Source: Aureococcus anophagefferens (taxonomy: Eukaryota > Sar > Pelagophyceae > Pelagomonadales > Pelagomonadaceae). Taken from it: a stretch of DNA of 56,233 nt. The DNA lies in NCBI RefSeq assembly GCF_000186865.1, contig NW_008705594.1:261794-318026 (forward strand), given 5' to 3'. The position numbers and the translations under genes are program-made. The notes beneath the pieces are model-generated. The model ran no database searches, was not told where the DNA came from, and worked only from the letters and a program-made list of their open reading frames with translations. Positions within the stretch are counted from its first letter, which is position 1, and each line of letters starts with the position of its first letter. Shown here in pieces: positions 1-54,204 of this stretch.

Positions 1-1110
1 ACCATGGGGCGCGGTCGGACAATATCACTCTTGTAAGCGACGATGAAGACACTGTCTCGCTAGCATTGTCAAGTTTAAGTAGACTGCTTTGATAGTGTGA
101 GCTGGCCTTTATGGAACTCGGCCGCCTCGAGGTTGGCACAGAAAGCGCGGTGGACCGCGGCAAGTCAATCAAGTCGTTCTTGATGTCATTATTCCAGGCT
201 GACGACCACCACAGTGTTGAAGGGCTCGACACTTTCAATGCGTGCTATGGTGGGACAAATGCATTATTCAGTACCACGAGCTGGCTCCAGAGCAGAGCAT
301 GGAATGGCATGTACGGTGTCGTGGTCTGTTCCGACCCGGCGGTCCACCCAGATCCTGCTCATATCTCTGGTATTGGGGTGTCTTCAATATCCCTGGTGGT
401 AGCGTCGCAAGCAGCATTGCTGCTCCAGCGAGAGCGCGCGACATTCATCAAGCACTCCTGGGACTTCTATCGGCCCGTCGGGTGGCCCACAAACGACGCG
501 GTAATAGACGTGAACATCGCAACTGGTCAATACGAAGAGGCCATGATGTGGTGCCAGGGCTGATTTAGTGAAACAGTGGGTCGACGGGAACTACTGGCAA
601 CCTTTGATCTAGTCGCGTACCACAATAACGCTCCTTATCATTCAAAGAGGAACCTGTGACTCATGTGTGGAGTGATGTATGGTAAACTTTCCAAGGCCCA
701 ACACGAGAATTTGTTCCAAAAGCATGTTGAGACTGGCGTTGCCATAAGTGCCCAGAATGCTACCACCTACACGTGCCCGGTCTATGCTAGTTTACTTTCA
801 CTCGCTCTGAAGATTGGTGACAGCCTTGCTATTCAACGCACCCTGTGCATGGCATATGGATCCGGTTGCGCCGCTAGCATGTTCGGACTGGACGCTACTG
901 CTGCGCCCGTGTACGCTTCAGATGTGCTTGTCGGTCTAAATAGTCGATAGCAGACATCGACAGAGGACGCCCTACTACTAGTAAATGCTTTCGAGATGAC
1001 ACACAGATGATTTGGATACGAGCCATCGCATCGCGAGAGCTGATAGGATGCAGCCTTTTATCTCAAGAGCGTTAGTGCAATGGGGGTCCGTGCCTACGAA
1101 GCCCATTCGA
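1..1110 (+). CDS. HMG-CoA synthase-like domain, copy 1 (N-terminus outside window)
   Basis: HMGS of the beta-branching type condenses acetyl-ACP with a beta-ketoacyl-ACP. The family triad is visible: Glu in GRLEVGTE (129-131), nucleophilic Cys in NACYGGT (243-245) and His in KHSWDFYRP (453-455). The C-terminal half (663-1110) carries YGSGCAAS and ends near VRAYE, as HMGS proteins do. In-frame stops include TGA-TAG at 90-95, conserved in all four copies. At 15-25 this copy is one base shorter than the others, putting the first codons in another frame; this may be an assembly-edge error. Domain 2 (ECH1) follows in the same frame. Confidence 0.85.
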
Positions 1111-4100: not shown

Positions 4101-7100
4101 TTGGTGAGCCAAGAGCTTCAAGTGGCATCGCCAAACATGGGTCAAATTGCCTGTTGCCAAGTGGACACGCACCAAGTGCAAGCAACGGTTCCCACTTGCG
4201 TCGCAGAGGTGCTCGGCACTCAAGTAGCTGGAGACGCGCCGTTGATGGCGGCGGGAATTGACTCTCTGGGTGCCACGGAGCTGTAGCGAGCACTGAGCGA
4301 CGAGTTCAGCGCCGAGCTCCCGGCCACCTTGCTTTTCGACCATCCATCAATCGAGGGAATCGCATCTTTGGTGAGCCAAGAGCTTCAAGTGGCATCGCCA
4401 AACATGGGTCAAATTGCCTGTGGACACGCACCAAGTGCAAGCAACGGTTGCCACTTGCGTCGCAGAGGTGCTTGGCACTCGAGTAGCTGGAGACGCGGCG
4501 TTGATGGCCGCGGGAATTGACTCTCTGGGTGCCACGGAGCTGTAGCGAGCCTTGAGTGGTGAGTTCAGCGCCGAGCTCCCAGCCACCTTGCTTTTCGACT
4601 ATCCTTCGATTGAGGGTATTACTTCAGTTATTACCGAGGAGAGGCTTCTGTTGGTTTCAATATAACACACTGAGGTGTACTCTGGGGCTTAAAGGACAAG
4701 ACTGAGCCTCAAGTAAGATGCCTCGCCGCCCCTACTGATATCAGAAGCATCAGATGGGACGGCAACCTTGACCTACAATCGGCCCAATACTCAAAATGCC
4801 TGGGACGGTGAAATGATCGATGCCTTATCGCGTTCTCTCGAACTCTTGAGCAATAGTACGAGCACACAACAAGTGGTGGTTACTGGAACTGGTCGCTATT
4901 TTTGTTCGGGAGCCGCTTTCACTGAGATCGTCGCAGTGTAATCCACCGACTCAGACCATTCGAATCCGCTCTCGGTATTCCTTAGTTTTCCAAAGCCAAT
5001 TGTTGCAGCTGTAAACGGACCTGCATTTGGTGCGGGCGTAACACAAGCTACTCTTTGCGATGCCATCGTTTCTTCAGACGAAGCCACATTTTCCCTGCCC
5101 TTTAACTGATGGAAGGTATCGCCAGAAGGATGCTCATCAATCCACCTTGTTCGCATTGTTGGGGCTCGTGTGGCGTCCCAAATGATTGTAGACATGTGGA
5201 TCCCTTCTTCTCTAGACCTACTTGCACTTGGACTGGTCACGTGATCTGCGCGCACTAAAACGCTCGTAGAAACTGCATGTCAGCTTCAAATTGCAAGATG
5301 AGCGCTCCCGGCCATTGGAAGTGCCTCGGAGGCAACCCACGAATACTCCGAAGCGGACGAGATGGAAAGTGCTGCTCTGAGTGATGCGTTTTCCTCTGCA
5401 CCTTTCTTCCTCGGATAAATTGAGTTTGCTATGCGCTTGTGATAGCCGATAGTTGAGACCACTTTTCGCATCATGTTGTTGAATTCAACCTTGTCTACTA
5501 TAGTTTAGTTGATTCGCGATGAAGATGATAGCAGCGATGGAAAGTCGCGTGCGATTGTGGGTGCGATCGGCGGTATGCAGTAGCGGCGGCCAGAAGAGAC
5601 TAAACCTCCACTCGCAGAACACCGGGCCAGGCCTCCATTTTCGCGAGAGGCCGGACAAGGACTCTGATTCTAATTCCATCTGCCGGGCGCAGCTTTGAGC
5701 TCGGCCGATTTGAGATGCCTCGTATCCAATTCTCTGGTAACTTCTACCTGTATTCCGTTGCATCGGTGGGACAGTGCGTCGGAGCCACCTGCGGCAGCGT
5801 ATGGGTCTTTTCTGTAGATGCCACTTGTAATAGACGATGGGCGCAGTTTCGGAATAAATCGACTCGAGGCTGGCAGAACTGATCCGCAATATTTCTTGCT
5901 GCTTCAATTGGCGGGCCAAATAATTGAACCTCAATGCTCTTCTCACAGAGGGTTCGGAGTTTACGTGGGAATGCTTTCTTCCCCGATTGAGGTTGTTTCT
6001 ACTTCCGTTCAAACGGGCCATTAATCGCAGGTCAGCTCTGCGGCTGGTCGAATCTCCTTCACGTTTGGGCTCACGGGCGCAGCTGTGACAATCGACACTG
6101 CCTGCTCTTCGTAGCTCGTAGCAACTCATATTGGTCTGATGGGGATGGAGTGAAACGATTGCACGCAGGCCTTATCTCTGGGTGTCGGTTTACTCGGGCC
6201 AATTTGGAATGGTGGATTTGCAGCGAAGGGCATGACTTCGACTCGCGGTCGCTGCCACACCTTTGATTCTCGCGCCGACGGATACGCTCGCGGAGAAGGC
6301 TGCTCACTGCTACTCTTGCATACTGAGGCCGACACGGTGTCTTGTCTTCTTTCCGCGGCAGTCTAAAACGACGGGCCAAGCGCCAGCATGACAGCCCCTA
6401 ATGGATCCGCGTAGTGACGCCTGATTGATGCGGTACGGAAATCTGTTGATTGTGCACGTGAGTTTCGCGGGGTTGCCTTTGAGGCCCATGGGACGGGAAC
6501 TGCGCTTGGAGATCCCGTCGAGGTTGGAGCAGTCATTGGTGCGCTTTGTACGTTCGGAGCAGAAATTGTGTGCACGTCGCTCAAGGCAAACGTGGGGCAT
6601 CTCGAGGCTGTCGCGGGTGGAGCGGGAGCGGTCGCATAATTATCTTTTGCTCTGTCAATAGGAAGTGTTGCTGCGAACTCTCAGCTGCAAAAGCTGAATC
6701 CGCATCTAGGGACGATGGTCTGAGCTGTGCCCTACTCGATTCCGGTTCGGGATTTTGTACCACTAGGGGAAGGCGTGCTCCAAGGCCGACTCAGTTCTTT
6801 CGGAGCGACTGGCACGATCGCGCACGGGGCATTTGCGGCTATGGTCTAGTCACACTGGTCCAAGTACACTGCCAAATTGCCTTCCCTCTATCGTGCTCAG
6901 CTGCCAGCCGCCTCTGGCGCGCGGCGAGCAAGTCGATGGACGACGCAACAAGACTCTGGAATCGCCGAAAGCGCGACGACGGCACCCCGCACCGGAGATC
7001 GCGATGTCAACACGTGCGCATATACAGTCCTCTTGTCGCTGGCACTCGGTAGAACTCATGCATCTCTTGGTGACGTTCGCTTCAATCACTGATTTATGTC

Positions 7101-10100
7101 ACAGACTCACAACAGCGTGCTTGGTTGTCACTTTGACTCTACGGCGCATACTTGGGCTGTTGTGACGCAGTAGTGACAGCCTCGAGTGCTTGCGTGCGGT
7201 GTGGTGCTGCAGGATCGGTCATCCGCTGAGGTTTCCGAGATTGTCCCCCAACCAGCAGCTCCGCAGACTTGGACCATTTGCAGCGAAGCGCTCGGCACGC
7301 TGCAGTTTGATAATGTTTGCAGGGCTATGCTACAGCTTCCTCCCTCTGGCGAGTCGTAGGCGTAGTCTGCTGAACAGCTCTTATTATGATTGGCGATGGC
7401 CCTCGATAAGTGTGAGGTCGACAGCCAGTAAGAAATACTCGCGATCGACATGTATTCGCATCAGAGCGCTGATACGCAGATAAAGCACCTGTATTGCGCG
7501 ACGGTTTCAGATCGCGCCGCGCGTTTCCTGGTTGTGGATGCGGCGTCCTGGGACAATGCCGTTGTAGCGAGCGGGATTCACGCGCAATGACGCTGCGCTT
7601 CCTTGGCTCTATCGAGGGTTGCAGACATTACTTTCGACGTGAAGACCTTTGGTGTTGCCTCTTTATCCTACTACGCTCCGAATCTAGCCCTGGGCGCCTC
7701 GTGCGCGGAAGCATTCCACGTCAGTCCCGGTAGATACACGATGGGGCGCGGGCAGGAGAACATCACTTTCGTTAGCGCTGATGAAGACACTGTCTCGCTG
7801 GCATTGTCAAGTTTGGGTAGACTGCTTTGATAGTGTGAGCTGGCCTTTATGGAACTCGGGCGCCTCGAGGTTGGCACGGAAAGCGCTGTAGACCGCGGCA
7901 AGTCAACGAAGTCGTTCTTGATGTCACTGTTCGAAGCTGACGACCACCACAGTGTTGAAGGGCTCGACACTTTCAATGCGTGTTATGGTGGAACAAATGC
8001 CCTGTTCAGTACCACGAACTGGCACCAGAGCAAAGCATGGAATGGCACGTACGGTGTCGTGGTCTGTTCCGACCCCGCGGTCCATCCGGATCCCGCGACC
8101 ATCTCTGCCATTGGAGCCTCCTCAATATCCCTGGTGACTGCGTCGCAAGCATCATTGCTGCTCCAACAAACGCGCACGACCTTCATCAAGCACTCCTGGG
8201 ACTTCTATCGGCCCGTCGGATGGCCCACAAACGACGCGGTAGTGGACGTCAACATCGCGACAGGTCAATACGAAGAGGCCATGATGTGGTGCTAGGGCTG
8301 ATTTAGTGAAACAGTGGGTCGACGGGATCTGTTGAGAACATTCAATCTAGTCGCGTACCACAACAACGCTCCTTATCATTCAAAGAGGAACCTGTGACTC
8401 ATGTGTGAAGTAATGTATGGTAAACTCACCAAGGCTCAACACGAAGAGTTGTTCCAAAAGCATGTCGAGGCTGGCATTGCCATAAGTGCCCAAAATGCTA
8501 CCACCTACACTTGCCCGGTCTACGCGAGTCTGCTGTCGTTCGCTCTCACGATTGGCTCTGGCCTGGCCAATCAACGTATCCTATGCATGGCGTATGGATC
8601 TGGTTGCGCCGCTAGCATGTTCGGACTGGACGCTACTGCTGCGACCGTGTACGCTTCAGATGTGCTCGCCGGCCTGCGTGATCGGTAGCAAACACCAATT
8701 GAGGACGCCCTACTACTTATCAGCGCTTTTGAGATGACACATGGACGATTCGGATACGAGCCGTCACATCACAAGAGCTGATAGGATGCAGCCTTTTATC
8801 TCAAGGGAGTCAGTGCAATCGGGGTCCGTGCCTACGAAGCTCATTCTGCAGTTACGTTGATCAAGGTAGACGCGCTGGAATCTTCTTGTGTTGTCCGCGT
8901 CGAGCTAGGCTAGGACTCGGTGACTGACTCGTTGCTTGAGGAGCTCATCCCAGTCCTAGATCCCGGACGAATCGTAGTTTTCGCGTCTGCCACTGCAGCT
9001 CAGAGTGGTATCAAAAGTGCCATAGCGGAGAGACTCCTCCTCAATCACTTCTCGTCACAAACCAGTCATCTTCCAATCGTCTTTTCGACTCGCGGGCAAA
9101 CAACGGGGGGGAGAATGCTGATTATTGCAGTTGCGGACGTCGCGAGTGCAACATCTCAGTCCACGTTTGGACTATTTGTCGCGCTTCATCAACCCCTGGG
9201 CATTGCCCCCGTGGCGCTCCGCAGGCGGGTCAGATCCCAACTCATTCGGCGATGGGTGCTGCTTCAAGAGGAACTTGAGGCGAGCACAGCACTGAGGAGC
9301 GGGTTGGTCGAGGTCATTACCTCGAGAGGTGAAGATCATTAGTTTCTTTGCTCTCTGGTTCAACGTTTAGCATCAGGATCGACCGTGGGCTCGCAGATGT
9401 AGATGATTCTCCCTGGAGTCTTGGTGACAGATACAGCAACGCACGTTACCCGACAGCTTCAATCTAGATACCCCTTGGCAGGAATTGGAGAAATATTGGT
9501 GGACAAAGGCTCTTGCTCTTGGAGGCAGACAGCTGAGTACATTTACAATTTTCAAAAAGAAGGGATACATGCCATGATTCTGCATACTGATACCAGGACG
9601 CAGAGAGCACGCTTGGGTCCTCACACTGAGGCGATTTTACCGAAGAAGAGGTAGGCTTGTGACCAGCACGCGCGATGATTGATTTCGAACATTTTTACAA
9701 AGCTCCGAGCTCCCCTACTTGGTATTTTGCAGAGATACAGCTCGCATGTGTTCAATTGGATGCTCGATACTGACTGGAGGACGTGCGGGACTCAAGCTCA
9801 TGGGGAACTATCGTCGAAATGTTCACCCACTGCGTGCACTCCACAGGTCTCCGGGGAAAGTGCAGATCTACTCGACAGGGGCGTCGTGTCTGCGTTTCAC
9901 GATCTTTCTTCTAGTCCATATTCGCATGCGCTCACTCTCGCTCACACGGTGACCTTGGCGCCCCGTGCTGGGGCCTGCAACTCGACTACGCTGCTACGAA
10001 TGAGCTCAGAACTGGCGATTTGCGATGGCACTGCAAACCAAAACAGTAATTAGAAGCCTTTGTATGATCAACGTCCTATCCTTAATTGTGCTGAAACTCG

Positions 10101-46100: not shown

Positions 46101-49100
46101 CTGAACGGGTCGTCGTAGTAGCACCTGCTGCGTCGCAGCGGAGAACTCGACACTCGATTCATCGAAGCCCACGGGACCGGCACATCGCTGGGCGATCCCG
46201 TGGAAGTCGGCTCGTTGGCCGGCGTGTTCGCGTCGTCTGCTGTGTCGATTACTTCCCTCAAGGGTAATCTGGGCCACATGGAAGGCACGGCTGGTGCTGG
46301 CGGCTTGCTGAATCTCAGCAGCGTGCTCGAATTTCGGTCGGCAGTCGCCAACGCCCAGCTTCGCCGGCTGAATCCGAACCTACAGAACATGATCGCTGGA
46401 TGAACACTGGAGCTCGCGGCGGACTAGACTACGGTGACGCGGGCATCGACCGGCGGCGCGAGCTCGTTCGGGGCTACGGGCATCATCGCGCACGCGCGGC
46501 TTGGAGGCTTTCAAGTAATCAAGTTGCCGAGTACTTTTTGTAAACTTGGGACTCCATCTTCGTGTCGTGCTTGTATCTAGCAATCAAGGATGTAAGTGTA
46601 TTGATGGATTGCCTCAAAAAGAGCTTCAAGCCCTTAAGGGTCCAGCATTGCACCATACACCTCAATCTCTCCCATACTCTCTGATCATATAATACACCCC
46701 CCCTCACCGAAAGTTTATCTTTTAACATCTCGCGCGTTTATACCTGCCGTCAATCTGCCACAATTGTATTCGTCTTCAGAATTGGCTGATCTACTATAGC
46801 ACAAGGACGATGGGATCTTGCATCGGGCGATGTGACTGGGCGCTGATACAGTCTAGCGAGGAAACATTCATGAGTTCATTTGAACCCTGGCGTGCAGCTC
46901 GGAAAATTCAGTGAAGCAATGGAGGGGGGGGCCTTCCGGCGGGGTTGAGTGGTGACTTTGGTGGGGGGGGCTGACTGTTGATTCATTGCTACTGGAAAAC
47001 AAAACGTTGACAAGCACTCTCACGTCCGTCCCACTATCATCCTCTGGGCATTGGCAATCTACCTAGGACCTATCAGGCTCTATTACCGAGACCATTTGAT
47101 TAGTTTGGGCTTCTCGGACGCTAGGATGCCATGACTTGGCCAATCGCAACATCAGTACCAAAGTATCCCAAGCTTGATGCTTAGGGCGACACTCAAGCAG
47201 CATATGGTTCCCCGGAATCATCTCTCAAGCGCACGCTGTGGAGCTGGTCCGCTTGGACACGTACAACCTGTCTCATTTGCTCGTGTTTGAGAATAACAAT
47301 TTTGCATCATCTCAATAGGGTCCAAGGAAGTTGGCTACGGGAAGTAGCCTCACAAATCAATCGTCCCTGACTTGTTACAATATACAAGTCTCTGCTAGAT
47401 CTGACTGTTGTGATACCAAGACGATGATATGCTCCGTGGCCTGGGAGGCTCTCGGTACACAAGTAGACATGAATACTCCGTTGATGTCAGCTGGCTTGGA
47501 CTCTCTCGCAGCAACGGACTTTGCACGGACCCTCTCTACAAGTTTGGGACTCGAGGTGAGCCCGACCATGCTCTTTGACCACCCGACATTAGATTCCGTT
47601 GTGACATTCCTCTCTGCGGATTTCGGCAGCGCACTGGCATGTGGGGTTCAGCCTGAGCGATACCACCCGCATATTTTGCAGCAGTCATCTCTTCATGAGT
47701 GAGAAGAGCAGCAGTCGATTTTAGCATTCAGGTTCCAGCTGGTCGGGTCGATTTGCTCCGATGATGGATTGCGCTCAATTTTGATGTGCGTGCACACGAC
47801 GAATTCGCGTGTCCCCGCAATGCGATGGGTGACGGCGAATTCACGAGTGGCCACGGCCGCAGGGTATGGCTCATTCATGTGCGTGAAGCAATGCAGCATC
47901 GATATTGGTGTATTCAAAATTTCGATGCTAGAAGCGAAGTCCATCGATCCTCAGCAACTTTTTGTGCTCAATGTTGCGTACGATGTCCTGCGCATGATTG
48001 CTTCAACACGAGATCACTATTTGTATGCGGATGTCGGAGTATTCGTTGGAGTTGAACCCAGTGGCTGAGAAGATAATAACATGGACGTAAATGTGTTTAC
48101 CGCGAGCGGTGTTGCGCTATCAGTGACGTCCGGGCGGTTATCCTACATGCTTGGTCTCATTGGACCGTGCTATTCGATTGATACTGCCTGCGCTTCCTCC
48201 TTGGTTGCGTTGCACTCTTGCTGAGGAGCTCTTAAGAATGGAGAATGCTTAAAGTCTGTGAGTATCGGGACCAAAATCCTCAGCGAAGCGCTCAATACTG
48301 CTACATCGATCGCTGGAATGACATCTTCTCACGGATGATGCCACACATTTGACGATCGAGCAGACGGGTATTGCCGTGGAGAGGGATGCGGAGCTTACCT
48401 GCTGTCGTCTAAAGGTTCTAGTGGCTAGGTCATTGGCACGGCTGTGCAGTAAGACGGCCCAAGCGCGAGTCTGACGGCACCCAACGGGTCTTCGCAAGAG
48501 CGACTTATCAAGACGGTGCAGGGTAAAGAAGACAAATACCCGGCATTGGAAGCGCACGGCACGGGCACATTGCTCGGCGATCCCATCGAGGTAAGGCTGG
48601 CAACAATTCTTCGGATGTTTTTATTCGTTTCTTGTAGGTGGGGGCGTTGATCAGGGCCTTGTGTGCAAAATCTTAGCTAGTACGGTGCGACTCGTTGAAG
48701 TCGAACATGGGTCACTGCGAGGCATCGGCGGCCGCCGCGGGATTGGCCTCTCTCGTGCTCGTACCCCTCAGTATGTGTGTGGTTGCTACGAACGCGCAGC
48801 TTAGGCTGTCGGCGCAATTCAAGTGCGAGGCCTGCTGAATTTCGAGCGCACAAGGTTGAACACGCACCTGCCCTCGATCGTGTCGTTCTGATTCCAGATG
48901 CCCTTGGAAACTGCTGCTCAAGGTGAGAATCAGCGAACATCCGTGGGTCGGTTGAGCTCCTTCGGCTTCAGCGGGACCATCGCGCACGGGGCTTTCACAT
49001 TTCCAGCATGTTTGGCAGCGTCCTGAAAGGAAGCGATATTGGCCTCATGCTATCGCGCCCAAACTTCAGCATTATCAAGGCTTCGCTCAGTATATGTCCA

Positions 49101-52100: not shown

Positions 52101-54204
52101 CCAACATTGGGAATCCGTAATCAAGAACGGTATGACTATACCAGGTTAACACATGTATTCAAACTGATTGCCAAGAATGGCAGGATTCCTACTTTCAACA
52201 AAACACTCTGGAGCATCCCATCTTCTCTAGTGTTTCTCATCTGCCTATTTCCATGCTGTAGACAGTCTTTGTTTACTCGTGTTTTCGACGGTCGAAGACC
52301 GTTGCTACTCTGCTCCGTCAAAAGACAGGGACGAGTTATTCTCGTGCGCGTCTTCTTTGTGAAATATGACGTTTGACTACATACGACGATAGCTGACCTG
52401 TAAAGATGCATACTGCGAAATCCAAGAGTGGTGTGCGCCAAGGACCCTTGTAGATTCCACTCCAGCATACTCGGCGCATATTGACTTGGCTGTGTTCAAT
52501 ATCTAAAATTTCTTTTTTAACGCACGTGTCGTGCATCTTGTTTGAAATCCCTCGTAATGTGCGAGTTTGGAAATGAGCCAACGAGATTGCGAGCGCTTGT
52601 GGGCGGAAACCTTCCTGAAATTATCAATTTGCCTTGATTCATTTTCTGATCCTACGCATGTGTGCCGGCTGCGGTACGAAGATTTGTGTGATTCGTCAGA
52701 GAGCACAATGTGAGATTTGGAATTATTCTTCTGCCGTCCACCCGGAAGTCTCCATTGGACCTGAGCCAAAGAGCGGGTTTCGATTCCCCCTACATTGCAG
52801 CTGCGTTCCCCACTCAAGTTGCAGCTCAAGACTCGTCAGCTTGCCTGGTCTTTGGGATACTCGGTACACGTCCCGAGCGCGAATTTTAACTTTATTCGGT
52901 TTGATGTAGAAAGCGGGATGGTCCTTGTCGTACAAAAGGGAGAGGACCGGAACACAACTCTGGTCACCATTCACGGTGGGACCGGTACCCCCGTTGGAAC
53001 GCTTCTCGCATGCCATTTATCAAATTCAGTGCCGATCATCGCGCTGCAAGCGCCCGAACTCGTCGCGCCAAATGCCACGAGACCCTTCGTAGACGTGGAA
53101 GCGTGAATGTCCTACTACAGGAAAATCATGATCATGTAGCTTCGCCACCCTAGATGTGTGCACGTGGCTGGCCTCTCCCAGGGCGGGTGGTACGCCGCTT
53201 TATTCGCGCGCAGCCTAGAAGACGCGAAGATCTCGTGTGTGTCTTTGCACGTGGTCGATCCGACGCCTCTGGGCGGTTGAGGGTACAGAGGCCTGCTTGT
53301 GCAGATGGCGTCATTTTTTGACATGTTGTGCGCTACTTTTTTCTCGGAGAATTCGTGCGCAGCGGAATCAGCCGTGGCGTGCGGAGACCTGACGAGTATA
53401 GGTTCGCTCGTCCAGCACATTTCAGAGTCGGTACCCGTTTCAATCCAGGAAGAAGTCTGGAGGCTGGTGTATTACGCAATCTCATAAGAGACAGAATATT
53501 TTAACCTCGTGCGCAAGCGTCCTGACTTCTTTCGCCGCCTTTGCGCCCCGACCGCGTTCTTTAAATGCCGGGACGACGGTCCGGCCTTTTTCAAGCGGCT
53601 GTCTCATTTTTCGTGCGAGCATCTCGATGCTGTGTACGGCTGGAGCCGCGCCCAATCCAAGTAGGGTCACCCGACAATTTTGGACTGTCTCCACATCGAC
53701 CCGCTGAATAAATCACCCTGGATCAATTTGGTCGCGTTTTGGATTTAGCGATCGGTCGTCGCGGATCCTCGCGGTTTTTGGCATGAAGCGGTTCAAGAGG
53801 GTCGGGGCATGGAGAGAATGTGCGCGACCTGGGCTCTTGTGCACTCAGAACACTTGAATCGCTATCTCGACACTCCGGGCGTCAGCGGCTTGGATCGCGC
53901 CTACGCAAAAAGCACATCCTACACAATCTCGGCCGCTAGCGATACGATTTGCATATCCGTACCGTCGGCCACCGGGGCCATCGAGACGGTCTGCGCGCTC
54001 GACGGTCTGCCGACAAAGGTCAACGTTGGCGATGATTTTTCTTTCGACTCCGTCGTTTGGAGTGCCGACACCCTCATCTTGACAAGAAAAAGGTCCAGCC
54101 ATATCATTTGCGTGCAGCACGTCCTCGAATCTGAAGACATACTAGTCGTCAGGTCCAGTTTGGACGCCACCGTCGAGCTCGTGCAGCGTTATCGGCGCCT
54201 CTAG
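1..54204 (+). CDS. Giant modular trans-AT polyketide synthase, 5'-truncated, with introns and in-frame stop codons
   Basis: One continuous multidomain polypeptide on the plus strand. Reading frame by position: frame 3 to ~4420, frame 1 to 16496, frame 3 to 34157, frame 2 from 34426, frame 3 from 41087, frame 1 from 48855 to the end. Apart from an 8-nt deletion near 4420 and a 1-nt difference before 25, every frame change is explained by one of ten predicted introns. Stop triplets occur throughout, at Gln (TAG/TAA) or Arg (TGA) positions wherever a paralogue or motif allows a check. The part seen is about 17,900 codons. The end is set by the TAG at 54202-54204 after a fatty-acid-binding fold ending YRRL. 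No AT domain is seen, so extender loading is presumably in trans. Whether it is expressed as one protein cannot be told from DNA. Confidence 0.75.
1111..1720 (+). CDS. ECH1-like dehydratase domain, copy 1
   Basis: Crotonase-fold domain fused directly after HMGS. It shows the family core: [21 protein letters not shown] (oxyanion loop with GGG, 1357-1420), then FGLSV and RRWVLLQE. Its place after HMGS matches ECH1 (PksH/CurE role), which dehydrates the HMG-type intermediate. A run of eight G (1371-1378) lies in the GGG codons. The sequence ~775-1425 is nearly identical to 18365-19013 in copy 3, which suggests recent gene conversion. The catalytic assignment is by position and fold, not by a verified active residue. 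Confidence 0.72.
1721..2770 (+). CDS. Conserved inter-ECH linker region, module A, function unknown
   Basis: In-frame region between ECH1 and ECH2, also present in the other three HMGS modules (9461-10510, 19319-20390, 27419-28440). Recognisable blocks are [14 protein letters not shown]...IHAMVLHTG (1728-1850), which looks like a beta-alpha-beta unit, and [15 protein letters not shown] (2024-2068). It could be a ketoreductase structural subdomain, but I see no catalytic Ser-Tyr-Lys set, so I leave it unassigned. The part 2225-2640 is AT-richer and carries dense stops; it may contain an unrecognised intron. Confidence 0.4.
2771..3066 (+). CDS. Pre-ECH2 domain, module A, unknown
   Basis: Block with [13 protein letters not shown]...[12 protein letters not shown] before ECH2. 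A related block precedes ECH2 in each module, including the FSH modules, where it reads [13 protein letters not shown]...YTLIVNRG. The alternating hydrophobic strands suggest a small alpha/beta fold. No family recognised. Conservation across six modules argues that it is a real structural or docking element of the ECH2 unit. Confidence 0.4.
3067..3730 (+). CDS. ECH2-like (decarboxylase) crotonase domain, module A
   Basis: Crotonase fold matching the PksI/CurF-ECH2 role, which decarboxylates the 3-methylglutaconyl-type intermediate. Motifs: [16 protein letters not shown] (3132-3180), [17 protein letters not shown] (3255-3306), [18 protein letters not shown] (3414-3470) and [15 protein letters not shown] (3501-3545). 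In-frame TGA at 3390-3392 (VT-X-DIRRL) is AGA (Arg) in module D; the TAG at 3327 in KETF is CAG in module C. It is followed in frame by tandem ACPs. Confidence 0.78.
3921..4124 (+). CDS. Acyl carrier protein A1 of a tandem triplet
   Basis: ACP with phosphopantetheine attachment motif [16 protein letters not shown], then [18 protein letters not shown], the classic ACP helix-3 pattern. The TAG at 4017-4019 is CAG (Gln) in ACP B1. Tandem ACPs next to HMGS cassettes are typical of beta-branching modules. Confidence 0.88.
4176..4395 (+). CDS. Acyl carrier protein A2
   Basis: Second unit of the triplet, almost identical to A1 over the DSLGATEL to [15 protein letters not shown] stretch; the linker repeats [13 protein letters not shown]. 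Same TAG after GATEL. Confidence 0.87.
4436..4640 (+). CDS. Acyl carrier protein A3, after an 8-nt deletion
   Basis: Third unit, [16 protein letters not shown] and [15 protein letters not shown]. Compared with A2 the linker before it lacks 8 nt (GCCTGTGGACACG against GCCTGTTGCCAAGTGGACACG), moving the frame from 3 to 1; everything downstream stays in frame 1. This is the only uncompensated indel I found inside the gene body. It could be a real lesion, an assembly error or a sign of an unrecognised intron. Confidence 0.8.
4741..5490 (+). CDS. ECH3: accessory enoyl-CoA hydratase/isomerase-like domain, module A
   Basis: Third crotonase fold of the module, closer to the hydratase/isomerase family: [17 protein letters not shown] (4768-4818), [13 protein letters not shown] (4885-4920), [18 protein letters not shown] (4987-5040). 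Homologue at 30150-30895. In-frame TGA at 5107-5109, in the LPFN-X-WK motif, is CGA (Arg) at 30516-30518; two more TGA here are CGA in that copy. A shared TAA follows TEIVAV. Probable role (inference): double-bond isomerisation or extra hydration of the branch. Confidence 0.75.
5541..6850 (+). CDS. Ketosynthase A
   Basis: Elongating KS with all three catalytic elements: Cys in DTACSS (6101-6118), His in [12 protein letters not shown] (6481-6516) and His in [11 protein letters not shown]. The N-terminal PLHRWD element and LEAGRTDPQ are present, and the C-terminus ends [16 protein letters not shown]. No introns, unlike the KS domains at 15.4 and 33-51 kb. Stops: TAG after DTACSS is CAA (Gln) in KS-B; TAG-TGA in the NGSA-X-X-RLI motif is CAG-CGG (Gln-Arg) there. 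Follows ECH3 and precedes a DH-like region. Confidence 0.88.
6880..7600 (+). CDS. Dehydratase-like double-hotdog region, module A
   Basis: After LPSLYRAQ, the standard post-KS motif here, come about 240 residues: [16 protein letters not shown] with strands like a DH N-terminal hotdog, and [11 protein letters not shown]...[15 protein letters not shown] (7459-7560) like the end of a DH C-terminal hotdog. The catalytic HxxxGxxxxP motif is not seen. I first took the middle for a ketoreductase remnant. Homologues at 16,700-17,440 and 24,850-25,540. Probably inactive or atypical; the family call is tentative. Confidence 0.4.
7606..8850 (+). CDS. HMG-CoA synthase-like domain, copy 2 (complete)
   Basis: Complete HMGS: N-terminus [27 protein letters not shown], then GRLEVGTE, Cys 7981-7983 in [16 protein letters not shown] and C-terminal YGSGCAAS. 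Continues in frame from the preceding DH-like region and into ECH1. In this copy FGYEP is preceded by CGA (Arg), where copies 1, 3 and 4 have TGA. The TGA-TAG pair at 7828-7833 is shared with the other copies. Confidence 0.88.
8851..9460 (+). CDS. ECH1-like domain, copy 2
   Basis: Crotonase fold with [17 protein letters not shown], where Arg replaces the third Gly of the GGG seen in copies 1 and 3, then [12 protein letters not shown] and [11 protein letters not shown]. The changed oxyanion loop may lower activity. A TAG follows GEDH at 9340. Confidence 0.68.
9461..10510 (+). CDS. Inter-ECH linker and pre-ECH2 region, start, module B
   Basis: Same order as in module [12 protein letters not shown]...IHAMILHTD, then [15 protein letters not shown] (9761-9805), but the second half (9960-10510) has diverged and I recognise no fold. 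No net frame change: frame 1 before and after. Confidence 0.33.
10511..11330 (+). CDS. Pre-ECH2 plus ECH2-like domain, module B
   Basis: [28 protein letters not shown] (10530-10615) is the diverged pre-ECH2 block. The crotonase core follows: [15 protein letters not shown] (10816-10860), [12 protein letters not shown] (10936-10971), [18 protein letters not shown] and [14 protein letters not shown]. Here SRAL uses CGC (Arg) where modules A, C and D have TGA, supporting TGA as an Arg equivalent. Closest in spacing to the other ECH2 units but the most diverged of the four. Confidence 0.72.
11560..11790 (+). CDS. Acyl carrier protein B1
   Basis: [33 protein letters not shown] with no stop in it. 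The CAG at 11680-11682 is the sense partner of the TAG seen at the same place in the ACPs of modules A, C and [17 protein letters not shown] follows. Confidence 0.92.
11836..12084 (+). CDS. Acyl carrier protein B2
   Basis: Second tandem ACP, also stop-free up to TAA at 12082. Differs from B1 by a few residues (RALGDEF). The pair B1-B2 is the longest uninterrupted ACP stretch in the window and the best reference for the stop positions elsewhere. Confidence 0.92.
   Translation, partial: QVQATVVSCVAEVLGTEVAGDAPLMAAGIDSLGATELQRALGDEFSAELPATLLFDHPSIEGIASSVSQTFRVSSVEAELVT
12150..13460 (+). CDS. Ketosynthase B
   Basis: Intronless KS with [21 protein letters not shown]-terminal region, [31 protein letters not shown] and [14 protein letters not shown] at 12823-12825 falls exactly on the Arg of the KS motif GRCHTFD. 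Two unresolved bases (N) at 13029 and 13233. Near-identical to KS-C and close to KS-D; all three follow HMGS cassettes. Confidence 0.87.
13560..14115 (+). CDS. Dehydratase domain, module B, with catalytic His motif
   Basis: [20 protein letters not shown] (13603-13662) is a textbook DH HxxxGxxxxPG motif, followed by [15 protein letters not shown] later segment, [20 protein letters not shown] (14040-14099), fits the next hotdog strands but lies in another frame (3 instead of 1), so there is either a pair of compensating shifts or an intron between them. The C-terminal hotdog Asp region is not recognised. This is the only DH in the window that keeps the His motif. Confidence 0.6.
14116..14660 (+). 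other. Weakly coding AT-richer stretch between DH and ACP
   Basis: No domain recognised. Frame 1 is open in patches ([14 protein letters not shown] at 14410-14460; [15 protein letters not shown] at 14510-14555) but holds TAATAA and other clustered stops around 14469-14486. The frame before and after is the same, so this may be a fast-evolving linker or hold an intron. Confidence 0.4.
14773..14991 (+). CDS. Acyl carrier protein B3
   Basis: [20 protein letters not shown] then [19 protein letters not shown], stop-free. Differs from the HMGS-module ACP type ([10 protein letters not shown]) and belongs with the ACPs that precede intron-bearing KS domains (GLDSI type). Confidence 0.92.
15085..15290 (+). 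CDS. Acyl carrier protein B4
   Basis: [20 protein letters not shown] then [17 protein letters not shown] within FTIEL and TAG before TLLFD; the neighbour ACP has sense codons at both positions. Confidence 0.9.
15391..16690 (+). CDS. Ketosynthase B2, intron-bearing
   Basis: Best preserved KS: VPVTRW, YGSF, 220 residues without a stop from 15529, [51 protein letters not shown], then intron 1, VGAAMGALC...[10 protein letters not shown], intron 2, and LNTHLSSI. Ends [20 protein letters not shown] at 16190 in NGSSQR-X-L is CGA (Arg) in KS-D2 and KS-E. All catalytic residues present. Confidence 0.92.
16279..16326 (+). other. Intron 1 of KS-B2 (48 nt, GT..AG)
   Basis: Interrupts the motif GDPIE/VGAA, contiguous (GDPVEVGA) in the intronless KS domains. 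Phase 0; its last codon is an in-frame TAG. Confidence 0.85.
16497..16543 (+). other. Intron 2 of KS-B2 (47 nt, GT..AG)
   Basis: Splits AQLRL/LNTHL; removal shifts the frame from 1 to 3, exactly the frame of all downstream sequence. Phase 2. The exon between introns is 170 nt. Confidence 0.85.
16700..17440 (+). CDS. Dehydratase-like region after KS-B2
   Basis: Homologue of 6880-7600: [53 protein letters not shown] and [15 protein letters not shown]. No HxxxGxxxxP. Parts are identical to 24,850-25,540 (for example 17155-17310), pointing to recent exchange between modules. Confidence 0.4.
17454..18700 (+). CDS. HMG-CoA synthase-like domain, copy 3
   Basis: Complete HMGS with [35 protein letters not shown], Cys 17832-17834, KHSWDFYRP. 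It is a mosaic: 18146-18330 matches copy 4 almost base for base, including TAA in LF-X-KHV (CAA in copies 1 and 2), while the following ~650 nt match copy 1. Confidence 0.88.
18701..19318 (+). CDS. ECH1-like domain, copy 3
   Basis: [21 protein letters not shown] with intact [40 protein letters not shown]. Longest stop-free ECH1 run (161 codons from 18771). Confidence 0.74.
19319..20665 (+). CDS. Inter-ECH linker and pre-ECH2 region, module C
   Basis: Blocks [11 protein letters not shown]...IHAMVLQTG and [15 protein letters not shown], then [12 protein letters not shown] and the pre-ECH2 block [14 protein letters not shown]...LLIVERRGN (20430-20520). Segment 19990-20330 is AT-rich with many stops and no recognised motif. 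Function unknown. Confidence 0.38.
20666..21320 (+). CDS. ECH2-like domain, module C
   Basis: [59 protein letters not shown] and [17 protein letters not shown]. Shares the TGA in MFS-X-AL with modules A and D. In frame with the following triple ACP. Confidence 0.77.
21530..21740 (+). CDS. Acyl carrier protein C1
   Basis: [16 protein letters not shown] with TAA where the other ACPs have TAG or CAG, a third spelling at the same Gln position. [18 protein letters not shown] follows. Confidence 0.87.
21784..22000 (+). CDS. Acyl carrier protein C2
   Basis: [16 protein letters not shown] with TAA, then [18 protein letters not shown]. The linker [16 protein letters not shown] has TAG where modules A and B have CAA (CCQVDTHQ). 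Confidence 0.87.
22048..22250 (+). CDS. Acyl carrier protein C3
   Basis: [12 protein letters not shown] with [20 protein letters not shown]. Ends the triplet; the enoylreductase domain follows after about 40 residues. Confidence 0.87.
22374..23430 (+). CDS. Enoylreductase (MDR / quinone-oxidoreductase type), module C only
   Basis: Full-length MDR fold, about 350 residues: GroES part [21 protein letters not shown] (22374-22436), [26 protein letters not shown], Rossmann loop [20 protein letters not shown] (22881-22940), [20 protein letters not shown] and GKVVL near the end. TGA at 23130 in [13 protein letters not shown] sits where the family usually has Arg. NADPH-dependent reduction of the unsaturated branch is the likely role; position after ECH2 and ACPs recalls CurF. 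Absent from modules A, B and D. Confidence 0.82.
23590..24780 (+). CDS. Ketosynthase C
   Basis: Intronless [77 protein letters not shown] (24420-24470), [20 protein letters not shown]. Nearly the same sequence as KS-B but without its ambiguous bases and a six-base insertion after NKR. Confidence 0.88.
24790..25560 (+). CDS. Dehydratase-like region, module C
   Basis: Same domain as 16,700-17,440, to which 24935-25030 and 25248-25390 are practically identical. [20 protein letters not shown] and [15 protein letters not shown] give the best match to a hotdog C-terminus. Catalytic His motif missing. Confidence 0.4.
25563..26790 (+). CDS. HMG-CoA synthase-like domain, copy 4
   Basis: [27 protein letters not shown] with TAG where copies 2 and 3 have CAG, EVGTE, Cys 25926-25928, [23 protein letters not shown] at 25773-25778 as in the other copies. 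HMGS to KS-D is one unbroken frame 3 with no indel. Confidence 0.88.
26791..27418 (+). CDS. ECH1-like domain, copy 4
   Basis: [21 protein letters not shown] (Arg for the third Gly, as in copy 2), [12 protein letters not shown], then [15 protein letters not shown] at 27195-27197 where the other three copies have CGA (Arg). Confidence 0.72.
27419..28735 (+). CDS. Inter-ECH linker and pre-ECH2 region, module D
   Basis: Carries the [15 protein letters not shown] block and the pre-ECH2 block [14 protein letters not shown]...[13 protein letters not shown] (28481-28580). 28040-28330 is AT-rich with no motif seen. Unknown function. Confidence 0.38.
28736..29385 (+). CDS. ECH2-like domain, module D
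   Basis: [46 protein letters not shown] and [20 protein letters not shown] uses AGA (Arg) where module A has TGA. Where modules A and C have TAA before the GFQIY motif this copy has AAC. Confidence 0.77.
29590..29790 (+). CDS. Acyl carrier protein D1
   Basis: [40 protein letters not shown]. An unusual TGA lies at the start (CVA-X-VLGT) where others have GAG, a difference not explained by Gln or Arg equivalence. Confidence 0.85.
29840..30045 (+). CDS. Acyl carrier protein D2
   Basis: [39 protein letters not shown]. Only two ACPs here against three in modules A and C. A TAA in HQV-X-AVVATC is CAA elsewhere. Confidence 0.87.
30150..30895 (+). CDS. ECH3 hydratase/isomerase-like domain, module D
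   Basis: [63 protein letters not shown]. Stop-poor partner of the module A copy: three sites that are TGA there are CGA here. Between the copies silent changes are at least as frequent as replacements in the stretch I compared by eye. Confidence 0.77.
30940..32310 (+). CDS. Ketosynthase D
   Basis: Intronless [112 protein letters not shown]. The Asn of KxNxGH is Ser here; Lys and His are kept. Confidence 0.87.
32320..32700 (+). CDS. Degenerate dehydratase-like remnant after KS-D
   Basis: SSLYRAQ, then [19 protein letters not shown] (32490-32550), which aligns with the module B DH motif [20 protein letters not shown] but has lost the catalytic His and the Pro. Suggests an inactivated DH. Confidence 0.35.
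32620..32830 (+). repeat. Linker segment duplicated at 46795-47000
   Basis: About 200 nt (GGATAATGGGATCTTGCA.. to the G-run and ..TTCATTGCTACTG) recur before the ACP of KS-G. Both copies contain long G runs (32788-32797; 46964-46970). Both lie just upstream of an ACP plus intron-bearing KS unit, so the unit was probably copied with its leader. Confidence 0.75.
32985..33200 (+). CDS. Acyl carrier protein D3
   Basis: [29 protein letters not shown] then [19 protein letters not shown], stop-free (open 32727-33281). The Asp before the pantetheine Ser is Asn (LNSI). Same class as G and H ACPs. Confidence 0.92.
33290..34570 (+). CDS. Ketosynthase D2, intron-bearing
   Basis: VPAV-X-W with TGA at 33399-33401, where KS-G and KS-H have CGA, for the Arg of the KS P..RW motif. 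Then [61 protein letters not shown], intron, [21 protein letters not shown], intron, [24 protein letters not shown]. Acidic catalytic set complete. Confidence 0.88.
34158..34209 (+). other. Intron 1 of KS-D2 (52 nt, GT..AG)
   Basis: GAG/GTATGG...CTTAG/GTGGGG. Removal joins frame 3 to frame 1, restoring GDPIE-VGAA; the frame change makes this one of the strongest intron calls. Confidence 0.88.
34380..34425 (+). other. Intron 2 of KS-D2 (46 nt, GT..AG)
   Basis: CT/GTCCGT...GCTAG/GCTG; joins frame 1 to frame 2. Another AG at 34399-34400 would not restore LLNTHL. Confidence 0.83.
34625..35065 (+). other. Linker between KS-D2 and FSH1
   Basis: Begins with the post-KS motif RSLYRAQR. Frame 2 stays readable with Gln/Arg-type stops but no domain is recognised. 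Confidence 0.45.
35070..35850 (+). CDS. FSH-type serine hydrolase domain 1
   Basis: Alpha/beta hydrolase of the FSH family: [15 protein letters not shown], nucleophile elbow GISEGG (35451-35468), [12 protein letters not shown] acid region, and [12 protein letters not shown] with the catalytic His. It occupies the slot that HMGS holds in the four upstream modules. Possible roles (inference): hydrolysis or transfer of an acyl group from the adjacent ACP. TGA before HMVG is TAG in FSH2. Confidence 0.75.
35851..36690 (+). CDS. Unassigned region after FSH1, possibly a degenerate ECH1
   Basis: In-frame with [19 protein letters not shown] (35949-36005) and [20 protein letters not shown] (36138-36197). 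The last part resembles the ECH1 core (LPIV..GH...VADLAIAT) with the GGG loop deleted. Present again at 42601-43430. If ECH1-derived it has lost its oxyanion hole. Confidence 0.3.
36691..37400 (+). CDS. Pre-ECH2 region, module E
   Basis: [13 protein letters not shown]...DYTLIVNRG and a helical stretch [19 protein letters not shown] (36979-37035), then ADSLEAA. Counterpart of the block before ECH2 in the HMGS modules. Unknown fold. Confidence 0.38.
37401..38130 (+). CDS. ECH2-like domain, module E
   Basis: [57 protein letters not shown] and [20 protein letters not shown]. Two frame-2 stops here are TGA/TAG at Arg/Gln-compatible sites. Belongs to the same crotonase subgroup as the other ECH2 units; no HMGS in this module. 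Confidence 0.75.
38280..38500 (+). CDS. Acyl carrier protein E1
   Basis: [20 protein letters not shown] and [22 protein letters not shown] early in helix 1 region (SS-X-GTAVS). Confidence 0.9.
38600..38830 (+). CDS. Acyl carrier protein E2
   Basis: [20 protein letters not shown] and [19 protein letters not shown]. Distinct DAG-type ACP shared with ACP F. Confidence 0.9.
38935..39670 (+). CDS. ECH3 hydratase/isomerase-like domain, module E
   Basis: [19 protein letters not shown] (38953-39009), [53 protein letters not shown]. Open for 239 codons (38951-39670), the longest stop-free run in the window. YHVAEH replaces the YFCSGA of the other ECH3 domains, so oxyanion geometry or chemistry may differ. 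Confidence 0.8.
39810..41225 (+). CDS. Ketosynthase E, intron-bearing
   Basis: SVPL-TAA-RWA (CAA in KS-D), [104 protein letters not shown]. The ADG of the GYxRGEG motif is altered (GFA-X-ADGAGG). Catalytic Cys and both His present. Confidence 0.88.
40823..40870 (+). other. Intron 1 of KS-E (48 nt, GT..AG)
   Basis: GAG/GTGTGA...CCTTAG/GTCGGT at the GDPIE/VGAA junction; contains an in-frame TGA. Confidence 0.84.
41041..41086 (+). other. Intron 2 of KS-E (46 nt, GT..AG)
   Basis: CG/GTCTCT...AATAG/GTTAAACG; joins frame 2 to frame 3. 170 nt after intron 1, as in the other KS domains. Confidence 0.84.
41226..41799 (+). other. Linker between KS-E and FSH2
   Basis: Frame 3 with SLYRA motif then about 180 residues including [17 protein letters not shown] (41697-41747). 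No domain recognised. It is not similar to the linker before FSH1 except at the end. Confidence 0.4.
41800..42600 (+). CDS. FSH-type serine hydrolase domain 2
   Basis: [45 protein letters not shown] (42211-42246), [26 protein letters not shown] after ILIK is CAA (Gln) in FSH1. Part of a ~6.7-kb segmental duplication with 35070-38130. Confidence 0.75.
42601..43430 (+). CDS. Unassigned region after FSH2
   Basis: Second copy of 35851-36690: [47 protein letters not shown]. Slightly longer at the putative lost loop. Function unknown. Confidence 0.3.
43431..44165 (+). CDS. Pre-ECH2 region, module F
   Basis: [68 protein letters not shown] and TGA/CGA alternations with module E continue here (IKQ-TAG-N against IKQ-GAG-N is an exception). 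Confidence 0.38.
44166..44800 (+). CDS. ECH2-like domain, module F
   Basis: [66 protein letters not shown]. Very close to module E; differences are scattered substitutions. Confidence 0.75.
45010..45245 (+). CDS. Acyl carrier protein F
   Basis: [26 protein letters not shown] and [19 protein letters not shown], stop-free. Only one ACP here where module E has two plus an ECH3. Confidence 0.92.
45370..46520 (+). CDS. Ketosynthase F, intronless and distinct
   Basis: [78 protein letters not shown] (45792-45842), [72 protein letters not shown]. High G+C for this gene and few stops. Sequence is unlike both other KS groups; probably a third clade. Confidence 0.9.
46521..47395 (+). other. Long linker after KS-F, no domain seen
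   Basis: Frame 3 is kept on both sides but the stretch is AT-rich to 46800 and holds many stops, some in clusters; a minus-strand open frame at 46519-46728 looks like chance. 46795-47000 is the duplicated linker described at 32620-32830. Unrecognised introns are possible. Confidence 0.4.
47400..47620 (+). CDS. Acyl carrier protein G
   Basis: [29 protein letters not shown] and [19 protein letters not shown], stop-free (open 47331-47702). Confidence 0.92.
47720..48990 (+). CDS. Ketosynthase G, intron-bearing
   Basis: [101 protein letters not shown] (CAA in KS-H), [42 protein letters not shown]. Leu to Cys change in GHLE. Confidence 0.88.
48591..48637 (+). other. Intron 1 of KS-G (47 nt, GT..AG)
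   Basis: GAG/GTAAGG...CTTGTAG/GTGGGG, a near-consensus donor; joins frame 3 to frame 2. Confidence 0.9.
48808..48854 (+). other. Intron 2 of KS-G (47 nt, GT..AG)
   Basis: CT/GTCGGC...CACAAG/GTTGAACACG; joins frame 2 to frame 1. Confidence 0.85.
49050..49250 (+). CDS. DH-like remnant after KS-G
   Basis: SCYRAQT, then [20 protein letters not shown] and PYGAFTFF. Position and spacing (H, Pro) recall HxxxGxxxxPG, but the Gly is missing. Low confidence. Confidence 0.3.
49251..49730 (+). other. Linker, no domain seen
   Basis: Readable in frame 1 with stops; no motif. A minus-strand frame of 103 codons (49249-49560) has no recognisable feature. Confidence 0.4.
49735..49960 (+). CDS. Acyl carrier protein H
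   Basis: [29 protein letters not shown] and [19 protein letters not shown], stop-free within a 113-codon open stretch. Confidence 0.92.
50000..51330 (+). CDS. Ketosynthase H, intron-bearing, last of the assembly line
   Basis: [141 protein letters not shown]. Feeds the terminal ACP, sulfotransferase and thioesterase. Confidence 0.9.
50935..50982 (+). other. Intron 1 of KS-H (48 nt, GT..AG)
   Basis: GAA/GTACGC...TCTCAG/GTCGGC. No stop inside, so it could also be translated, but it is absent from intronless KS domains. Confidence 0.8.
51153..51197 (+). other. Intron 2 of KS-H (45 nt, GT..AG)
   Basis: CT/GTCAGA...GTTGTAG/GCTGAGC; multiple of three without stop; position identical to the other four. 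Confidence 0.8.
51550..51850 (+). CDS. Terminal acyl carrier protein H2
   Basis: [19 protein letters not shown], then [17 protein letters not shown] with the pantetheine Ser in a GLKSS context, and [10 protein letters not shown] in place of LFDHP. Diverged from all other ACPs here, as expected for a carrier dedicated to chain release. Confidence 0.8.
51860..52070 (+). CDS. ACP-like domain H3
   Basis: [19 protein letters not shown] then [23 protein letters not shown] and LCGVIGAL. Helical pattern fits an ACP with VGSL in place of DSL; the Ser may be the attachment site. Function uncertain. Confidence 0.5.
52140..52745 (+). CDS. Sulfotransferase domain before the thioesterase
   Basis: PAPS-dependent sulfotransferase fold, about 200 residues. 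5'-phosphosulfate loop: [19 protein letters not shown] (52168-52224), matching the SGxS-type loop of the family. 3'-phosphate motif: VHLV-X-NPSQCASLEMS (52531-52584), in which the invariant Arg is written TGA (52543-52545). Then [10 protein letters not shown] and [14 protein letters not shown], the conserved YEDL element. In curacin-type chain termination such a domain sulfates the beta-hydroxyl so that the thioesterase can release with decarboxylation and loss of sulfate. All ten stops in the domain are Gln/Arg-compatible. Confidence 0.8.
52790..53765 (+). CDS. Thioesterase domain
   Basis: Type I TE, alpha/beta hydrolase: [20 protein letters not shown] (52957-53016), [10 protein letters not shown], nucleophile elbow GLSQGG with Ser at 53176-53178, VVDPTPLGG, lid-region [20 protein letters not shown] (53497-53556) and YGWSRAQ. 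Six stops (TGA 53104, TAG 53137, TGA ~53278, TAA 53485, TAG, TAG), no frameshift. Together with the preceding sulfotransferase this suggests hydrolysis coupled to decarboxylation. Catalytic His not placed with certainty (candidate GFWHEAV, 53776-53796). Confidence 0.85.
53797..54204 (+). CDS. Fatty-acid-binding protein (FABP/calycin) domain at the C-terminus
   Basis: About 131 residues with no internal stop: [19 protein letters not shown] (53827-53883), typical of the FABP start, [37 protein letters not shown], and the end [17 protein letters not shown], matching the terminal strand of the fold. Same frame as the TE, about 30 residues on, so it is read as a fused domain; a separate gene starting at ATG 53809 cannot be excluded because a TAG (53746) lies between them. 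It could sequester the hydrophobic product. Confidence 0.82.
   Translation, partial: EGRGMERMCATWALVHSEHLNRYLDTPGVSGLDRAYAKSTSYTISAASDTICISVPSATGAIETVCALDGLPTKVNVGDDFSFDSVVWSADTLILTRKRSSHIICVQHVLESEDILVVRSSLDATVELVQRYRRL

Follow-up and report, generated by a model that had tools for sequence, protein, structure and literature searches.

In-frame stop codons at glutamine and arginine positions of a giant polyketide synthase gene in Aureococcus anophagefferens, and how they may be read

Can a gene with hundreds of in-frame stop codons still encode a protein and, if so, what would these codons stand for? The question is raised by a 56,233-nucleotide (nt) stretch of the 49.05-Mb Aureococcus anophagefferens genome (86 contigs), located at C34:261794-318026 (contig NW_008705594.1) and hereafter called the window, whose plus strand encodes a giant type I polyketide synthase (PKS) that is trans-acyltransferase (trans-AT)-like. 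An earlier reading made without database searches (the sequence-only reading) had proposed that TAG and TAA are read as Gln and TGA as Arg, and had suspected a nuclear code of the whole organism. A kinase encoded on contig C4 of this genome matched an A. anophagefferens protein at 100% over 81% of the query. Stops made up 399 of the 17,923 codons in the exon frame (2.2%), compared to 4.0% and 3.4% in the two alternative frames; this count, which may still include undetected introns, comprised 178 TGA, 134 TAG, and 87 TAA (terminal TAG at 54202 included). The 18 stops that had been counted between positions 5780 and 7600 were found again (606 codons).

The residues that the stops stand for were assessed from 550 alignments, in which the aligned residues were tallied per codon. 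Using a leave-one-codon-out inference, where each codon was scored against the profiles of all others (Met and Trp excluded), the correct amino acid was returned for every sense codon that could be tested (59/59), and TAG was assigned to Gln (runner-up Lys at -6.2 log units), TGA to Arg (Lys -2.9, Gln -13.1), and TAA, weakly, to Gln (Lys -1.3, Ala -2.8). Conserved columns, defined by at least 75% of one residue and n of at least 4 (2,148 columns), held 24 stops, of which 15 were TGA at Arg and 2 were TAG at Gln; judged by the repeat offsets, these TGA sites correspond to about eight distinct columns, because one ketosynthase (KS) column recurs in six copies. At Arg columns, 113 of 169 codons were CGN or AGR, 15 were TGA, 2 were TAG, and none was TGG, TGC, or TGT, while Gln columns carried CAR (18 of 21), TAG (2), and no TAA, and Trp columns carried TGG (14/14). 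The nine best-sampled stops (at least 31 sequences each, three KS columns) were seven TGA at Arg and two TAG at Gln. Solved structures were also compared: CurL (PDB 4mz0) has Gln opposite the TAG at 46116 and Arg opposite the TGA codons at 40568 and 40607, and in 7zma, with its two KS domains, Gln and Arg stand opposite 40568, and Asp and Pro opposite 40607. At variable places, further stops face other residues in these structures. As the stops at well-conserved positions lie mostly where relatives carry Arg (TGA) or Gln (TAG), it is likely that the stops are decoded as amino acids. Selenocysteine insertion was not supported, since TGA was absent from all 30 Cys columns and lay instead at Arg columns.

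Of the single sites on which the sequence-only reading had based its assignments, we also recovered TAG 4017 and CAG 11680, TGA 5107 opposite CGA 30516, TGA 27195 (CGA in each of the other three copies), TGA 33399, and a TGA opposite AGA (at 20973). The TGA at 52543, which that reading had placed at an invariant Arg of a sulfotransferase, lies opposite the RHP-motif Arg of CurM (PDB 4gbm; E 3.6e-4). A broader comparison came from the tandem units of the window, which are 81 to 92% alike. The gaps between copies were nearly all multiples of 3, substitutions peaked at the third codon position, and the transition/transversion ratio was 1.5 to 2.9. In a four-copy alignment, 64 sites had a stop in some copy, and 24 of these had one in every copy present; elsewhere, stops often alternated with CAG/CAA or CGA/AGA, and also with further codons. 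Across seven paralogue pairs (some copies being used in more than one pair), a stop faced the identical stop 85 times, a different stop 14 times, and a sense codon 92 times. Opposite TAA (n = 32) stood CAA in 10 cases and CAG in 2, opposite TAG (n = 35) CAG in 11, CAA in 4, and TGG in 1, and opposite TGA (n = 25) CGA in 13, CGC in 2, AGA in 1, and TGG in none, so that CAR faced TAR in 27 of 67 pairs and an Arg codon faced TGA in 16 of 25. Together, the codon inference, the conserved columns, and the paralogue pairs upheld the proposed reading of TAR as Gln and TGA as Arg, for TAA weakly. Conserved residues were retained in 14/14 Trp, 30/30 Cys, 128/137 Asp, 322/342 Gly, and 35/36 Asn columns. 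Decay would be expected to turn Trp into stops and Arg into Trp or Cys; none of these changes was seen at conserved columns, which argues against a decayed gene.

The reading frame was traced by tblastn with long stop-to-stop frames from nine other PKS regions of the genome, which covered the window in shifting plus-strand frames. As this query set (frames of at least 300 codons) includes wrong-frame translations, we relied on matches with E ≤1e-15 and on plus frames; two further short wrong-frame stretches were each supported by a single weak match. The frame of the 54-kb gene is not one continuous frame, as the sequence-only reading had taken it to be; it shifts seven times. Six of these shifts coincide with GT..AG stretches of 46 to 52 nt at two conserved KS places, whose lengths account exactly for the observed shifts, and in paralogue alignments the flanking exons are alike while the interior has diverged. 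We infer that these six are spliceosomal introns, as predicted from their sequence. Pfam domain scans (X substituted at stops) were run on 11 pieces covering about 29 of the 54 kb. The trans-AT hallmark of repeated KS and acyl carrier protein (ACP) domains with HMG-CoA synthase and enoyl-CoA hydratase (ECH) cassettes was present, and no match to PF00698, the integrated acyltransferase, was found in the pieces scanned. By sequence only, the KS, HMG-CoA synthase, and sulfotransferase resemble the bacterial curacin-type proteins CurL, CurD, and CurM (PDB 4mz0, 5kp5, and 4gbm). ACP-like G/A-x-D-S-V motifs at 1170, 8908, 18759, and 26853 have TAG at their second place in all four tandem copies.

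A code valid for the whole nucleus should also be visible in other genes. No stops were found within 32 histone matches. Of 20 histone gene ends examined, 12 extend to the point where the protein should end, and each of these carries TAA or TAG at that point: three H3 ends (all TAA), one H3-like end (TAG), and eight H2B ends (five TAG, three TAA), right behind the usual last residues; the others were seven H2A-like pieces open to their end and one partial match. Of 132 kinase matches (125 of 358 candidates scored), seven had stops. When all seven loci were read by eye, the stops were placed in introns or at match edges, and kinases with internal TAG or TAA were therefore dropped as support for sense stops. 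In non-PKS exons of low guanine-plus-cytosine (GC) content (0.475), 0 of 2,582 codons were stops, where about 54 would be expected at window rates; the kinase and eRF1 exons in this set were picked by eye around introns, which favours stop-free stretches, while 701 of the codons come from two retroelement copies that were not picked in this way. The sole eRF1 found (on C31) has standard GTS, NIKS, and YLCDNKF motifs, which have a role in stop codon recognition. Another eRF1-type match was Pelota-like, and an eRF1_2 match lay at a locus in the opposite orientation, with eRF1 legible on the reverse complement. Housekeeping genes thus lack in-frame stops, the histones directly and the kinases by reading of the loci. 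An organism-wide code, as the sequence-only reading had suspected, was not borne out as far as tested; the histone ends, the kinase loci, and the stop-free non-PKS exons spoke against genome-wide reassignment.

ARAGORN read the anticodon in 29 of 37 tRNA matches, and none of these was CUA, UUA, or UCA, in a catalogue that is incomplete (63 of 277 candidates scored, 8 of the 37 matches unread, no tRNA-Gln recognised). A pattern for intron-less UAR-suppressor tRNAs gave two hits, one an out-of-register tRNA-Lys and the other not a tRNA, and patterns with a UCA anticodon gave nothing usable. One anticodon pattern scan gave a count not above its control, among 100 of 124 hits listed, and the Gln tRNA pattern search was run without a positive control. 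One intron-bearing tRNA match (L063), with an insertion in the anticodon loop, gave no clear anticodon with ARAGORN or by eye, which leaves room for a suppressor tRNA; three others (L055, L065, and L067) have insertions of 26 to 41 nt in the variable region, away from the anticodon.

Stops were found in 71 of 80 KS matches on C34, C37, C41, C45, C52, C55, and C77 (120 TGA, 77 TAG, and 74 TAA), compared to 2 of 45 on other contigs. In a high-GC PKS on C11, two copies of the KS DPQ motif hold TAG (aligned residue Gln in 21 of at least 28), and TAG stands at another site where five of five aligned paralogues carry Gln, suggesting that the trait follows the PKS family rather than one foreign stretch. 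Two database proteins, P0001 and P0273, near-identical to the C4 and C11 PKS, end or begin beside TAG; their sources may be DNA or RNA. Given this split among contigs, the histone ends, the stop-free low-GC exons, and the standard eRF1, sense stops seem limited, as far as tested, to the PKS gene family.

We consider it about an even chance that the window holds a giant PKS gene, spliced as predicted, in which in-frame TAA and TAG stand for Gln and TGA for Arg and are read on the ribosome, so that the mRNA would be translated through its stop codons. More tentatively, and as a possibility somewhat short of even, a single gene family may be written in a second code within a nucleus that follows the standard one, with ordinary tRNAs decoding it by a first-position U-G wobble confined to the mRNAs of that family. 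Termination would then be weak on PKS mRNAs, where ordinary tRNA-Gln (CUG, UUG) would read UAG and UAA, and ordinary tRNA-Arg (UCG) would read UGA, by U1-G36 wobble, each of the three readings amounting to the first U being taken as C. We propose that only stop codons would be affected because UGG, UGC, and UGU have their own, winning cognate tRNAs; at conserved columns, no effect was seen at sense codons starting with U. A context-dependent termination signal on the mRNA, as proposed for codes in which all stops are sense, would fit the restriction to PKS. Natural readthrough is known to yield Gln at UAR and Arg at UGA. The raw ratios at codon position 1 were 0.19 for TAA/CAA (46/246), 0.47 for TAG/CAG (83/175), and 0.78 for TGA/CGA (111/142), and those of the synonymous Leu pairs TTA/CTA and TTG/CTG were 0.45 and 0.75, which suggests the strongest avoidance for TAA and none for TGA. 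Avoidance in the order TAA > TAG > TGA is the order of termination strength, and ratios that track stop strength favour a translational cause over editing.

Several results weigh against this explanation. With hundreds of readthrough events per protein, near-complete efficiency is demanded, in the same genome where histone genes terminate at TAA and TAG and where the eRF1 motifs are standard, and no enrichment of the leaky base C was seen after the stops. T was rare before TAA and TAG, yet it was also rarer before TAY than before CAY, and no inference was therefore drawn from the base context of these stops. The residue rule fits most conserved-column stops, but 7 of the 24 are exceptions (TAG at Arg 2, stops at Pro 2, Gly 1, Ala 2), all seven in columns with just 4 to 6 aligned sequences. 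In the paralogue pairs, TAR faced codons other than CAR in 40 of 67 cases, and TGA faced non-Arg codons in 9 of 25. The margins of the codon inference were small for Arg over Lys at TGA and for Gln at TAA, and its Fisher value of 1.2e-9 is too small because the copies are not independent. On C4, which also bears histone genes, Gln was the commonest residue at two TAG sites, with 11 of at least 28 at each, and further stops on C4 and C11 had no Gln or Arg majority opposite. Finally, the seventh frame shift, near 4410, reflects an 8-nt difference between tandem copies, to which no intron was confidently assigned.

U-to-C editing of the PKS transcripts would convert UGA, UAG, and UAA into CGA, CAG, and CAA before translation; it would account for all three assignments, each being T taken as C at codon position 1, and a possible transcript specificity would explain why other genes lack stops. 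In hornwort and fern organelles, such editing makes Gln and Arg codons out of these three stops, but there it is organellar and also hits other codons, of which we saw no clear trace. Some codons might point to it, namely TAY (5 of 83 at His columns), Phe codons (11 of 255 at Leu columns), and TCN or CTN (4 of 151 at Pro columns conserved to at least 75%), but these can also be ordinary replacements, and no TCN or CTN occurred across 81 Pro columns of at least 90%. At Arg columns, the lack of TGG, TGC, and TGT, against 72 CGG, CGC, or CGT and 15 TGA codons, speaks against general U-to-C editing. Moreover, one stop-rich piece compared to the database had no near-identical long protein (best match 56% over 42%; 7,997 candidates, length-limited). 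We therefore regard editing of this kind as unlikely. A-to-I editing or pseudouridine at the stops was set aside, as their products (Trp, or Ser/Thr/Phe/Tyr) do not fit. A near variant of the wobble mechanism would be dedicated suppressor tRNAs (Gln CUA/UUA, Arg UCA), with stops ambiguous everywhere and avoided by other genes. A precedent is the nuclear code of Amoebophrya, in which all three stops are used as sense and one of them is translated contingently (PMC6394959); the readable tRNA matches and the 2,582 low-GC codons speak against this variant, for which we see only a slim chance.

The low GC content of the window (0.54, compared to 0.69 to 0.79 across nine further PKS regions) and the clustering of stop-bearing KS on seven contigs would be understandable if the DNA came from an organism with a different code, as a contaminant or recent transfer not read by the alga. 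However, in the database the tested piece was most similar to a protein 99% identical to the C4 PKS of the same genome, TAG at Gln also occurs in the high-GC PKS of the 1.4-Mb C11, whose kinases lack stops, and long stop-free open frames are also present on C41 and C34. A second organism would also be expected to contribute kinases with clear exonic stops, and none was found among the candidates scored. Foreign DNA is thus quite improbable. The low GC content had initially led us to read the stops as C-to-T decay of PKS genes, by a process like repeat-induced point mutation or by methylation; the inferred changes do run from C to T, the CpG observed/expected ratio is 1.05 in the window compared to 1.39 to 1.58 in other PKS regions, and the shift at 4410 is unaccounted for. 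This reading was rejected on the frame-keeping gaps, the third-position excess and the transition/transversion ratio between copies, the stop sites common to diverged copies, the retained Trp, Cys, Asp, Gly, and Asn columns with no Trp-to-stop change, and the paralogue pairs, and we think there is very little chance that it is correct.

Stops also serve as sense codons in the Condylostoma and Blastocrithidia codes, with context-dependent ends; these codes differ from the present case in that UGA is Trp and in being genome-wide. No nuclear code is known to read UGA as Arg. Closest in kind is Amoebophrya sp. ex Karlodinium veneficum, for which the parts of PMC6394959 consulted give UAA and UAG as Gln and UGA as Trp: as here, all three stops are sense and UAA/UAG are Gln, and there UGA also still terminates; the differences are that UGA is Trp there and Arg here, and that many genes are concerned there and, as far as tested, only PKS here. 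In A. anophagefferens, co-directional KS gene clusters were described in 2015 that resisted re-annotation as type I PKS, which was attributed to incorrect gene prediction; the term "stop codon" is missing from the main text (PMC4661987, in the parts consulted). Those clusters may be the loci described here or different ones. "Stop codon" is also absent from the main text, as far as consulted, of a paper on another pelagophyte (PMC10366177), and the partly accessible literature yielded no account of sense stops in frame, either for Aureococcus or for PKS genes. If the explanation favoured here is true, it would account for the many KS genes in this harmful alga that could not be joined into type I PKS (PMC4661987), since gene finders halt at each sense stop. 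Codon meaning could then depend on gene family inside one nucleus, UGA could mean arginine in a nuclear gene, and the PKS genes would offer a sharp test of how cells distinguish a sense stop from a final stop. The features of the window are collected in Table 1.

Table 1. Predicted gene, introns, domains, and best-supported sense stop sites in the window
Feature	Position	Strand	Basis or remark
PKS gene, exons and introns	1..54204	+	tblastn coverage by same-genome PKS frames; Pfam; 5' end outside window
TAG, inferred gene end	54202..54204	+	preceding in-frame stop at 53746
Predicted intron GT..AG, 47 nt	16497..16543	+	KS NAQLR/LN motif; length fits frame shift
Predicted intron GT..AG, 52 nt	34158..34209	+	after KS GDPIE; paralogue exon flanks alike, inside unlike
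Predicted intron GT..AG, 46 nt	34380..34425	+	KS NAQL motif
Predicted intron GT..AG, 46 nt	41041..41086	+	KS NSQL motif
Predicted intron GT..AG, 47 nt	48591..48637	+	after KS GDPIE
Predicted intron GT..AG, 47 nt	48808..48854	+	KS NAQLR motif
HMG-CoA synthase-like domain	7642..8148	+	PF01154, E 1.1e-41; more copies at 21-413 and 17.4-18.1 kb
KS domain (about ten in all; HGTGT motif seen ten times)	45396..46334	+	PF00109, E 3.9e-46; PF02801
ECH-like domain	44226..44750	+	PF00378, E 1.2e-20
Acyl carrier domain	45033..45221	+	PF00550, E 3.5e-13
Sulfotransferase-like stretch	52159..52719	+	CurM sulfotransferase PDB 4gbm, E 3.6e-4; no Pfam match
Tandem unit	16634..21970	+	about 85% like 24722-30028; in parts 1-4629, 6811-9999; stop sites in common
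TAG at KS Gln column	6412..6414	+	Gln in 38/38 aligned residues
TAG at same KS Gln column as 6412	46116..46118	+	Gln in 37/37; Gln in CurL, PDB 4mz0
TGA at KS GRC Arg column (94% Arg)	12823..12825	+	column recurs at 24198, 31731, 40568, 48336, 50683
TGA at KS Arg column	40607..40609	+	Arg in 31/31; Arg in CurL; Asp and Pro in 7zma

Low-GC loci (0.46 to 0.57 where read) on C22, C29, C31, C35, and C44 hold intron-bearing genes, including the sole eRF1 found, and loci elsewhere in the genome are mostly 65 to 80% GC. Near-alike long open frames of up to 2,986 codons (GC 0.47 to 0.48) were seen at C41:13585, C49:91738, and C29:198498 (L101-L103); they have a DNA-methylase domain, are probably retroelements, and their matches were without in-frame stops. 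Near the end of C34, a DNA-methylase match with three in-frame stops (C34:351810-352256, L100) had no counterpart among the other copies compared, and it may be an element in decay or an instance of this trait beyond the PKS genes. Beyond the PKS gene, positions 54860-56233 of the window are GC-rich, with open frames on the minus strand.
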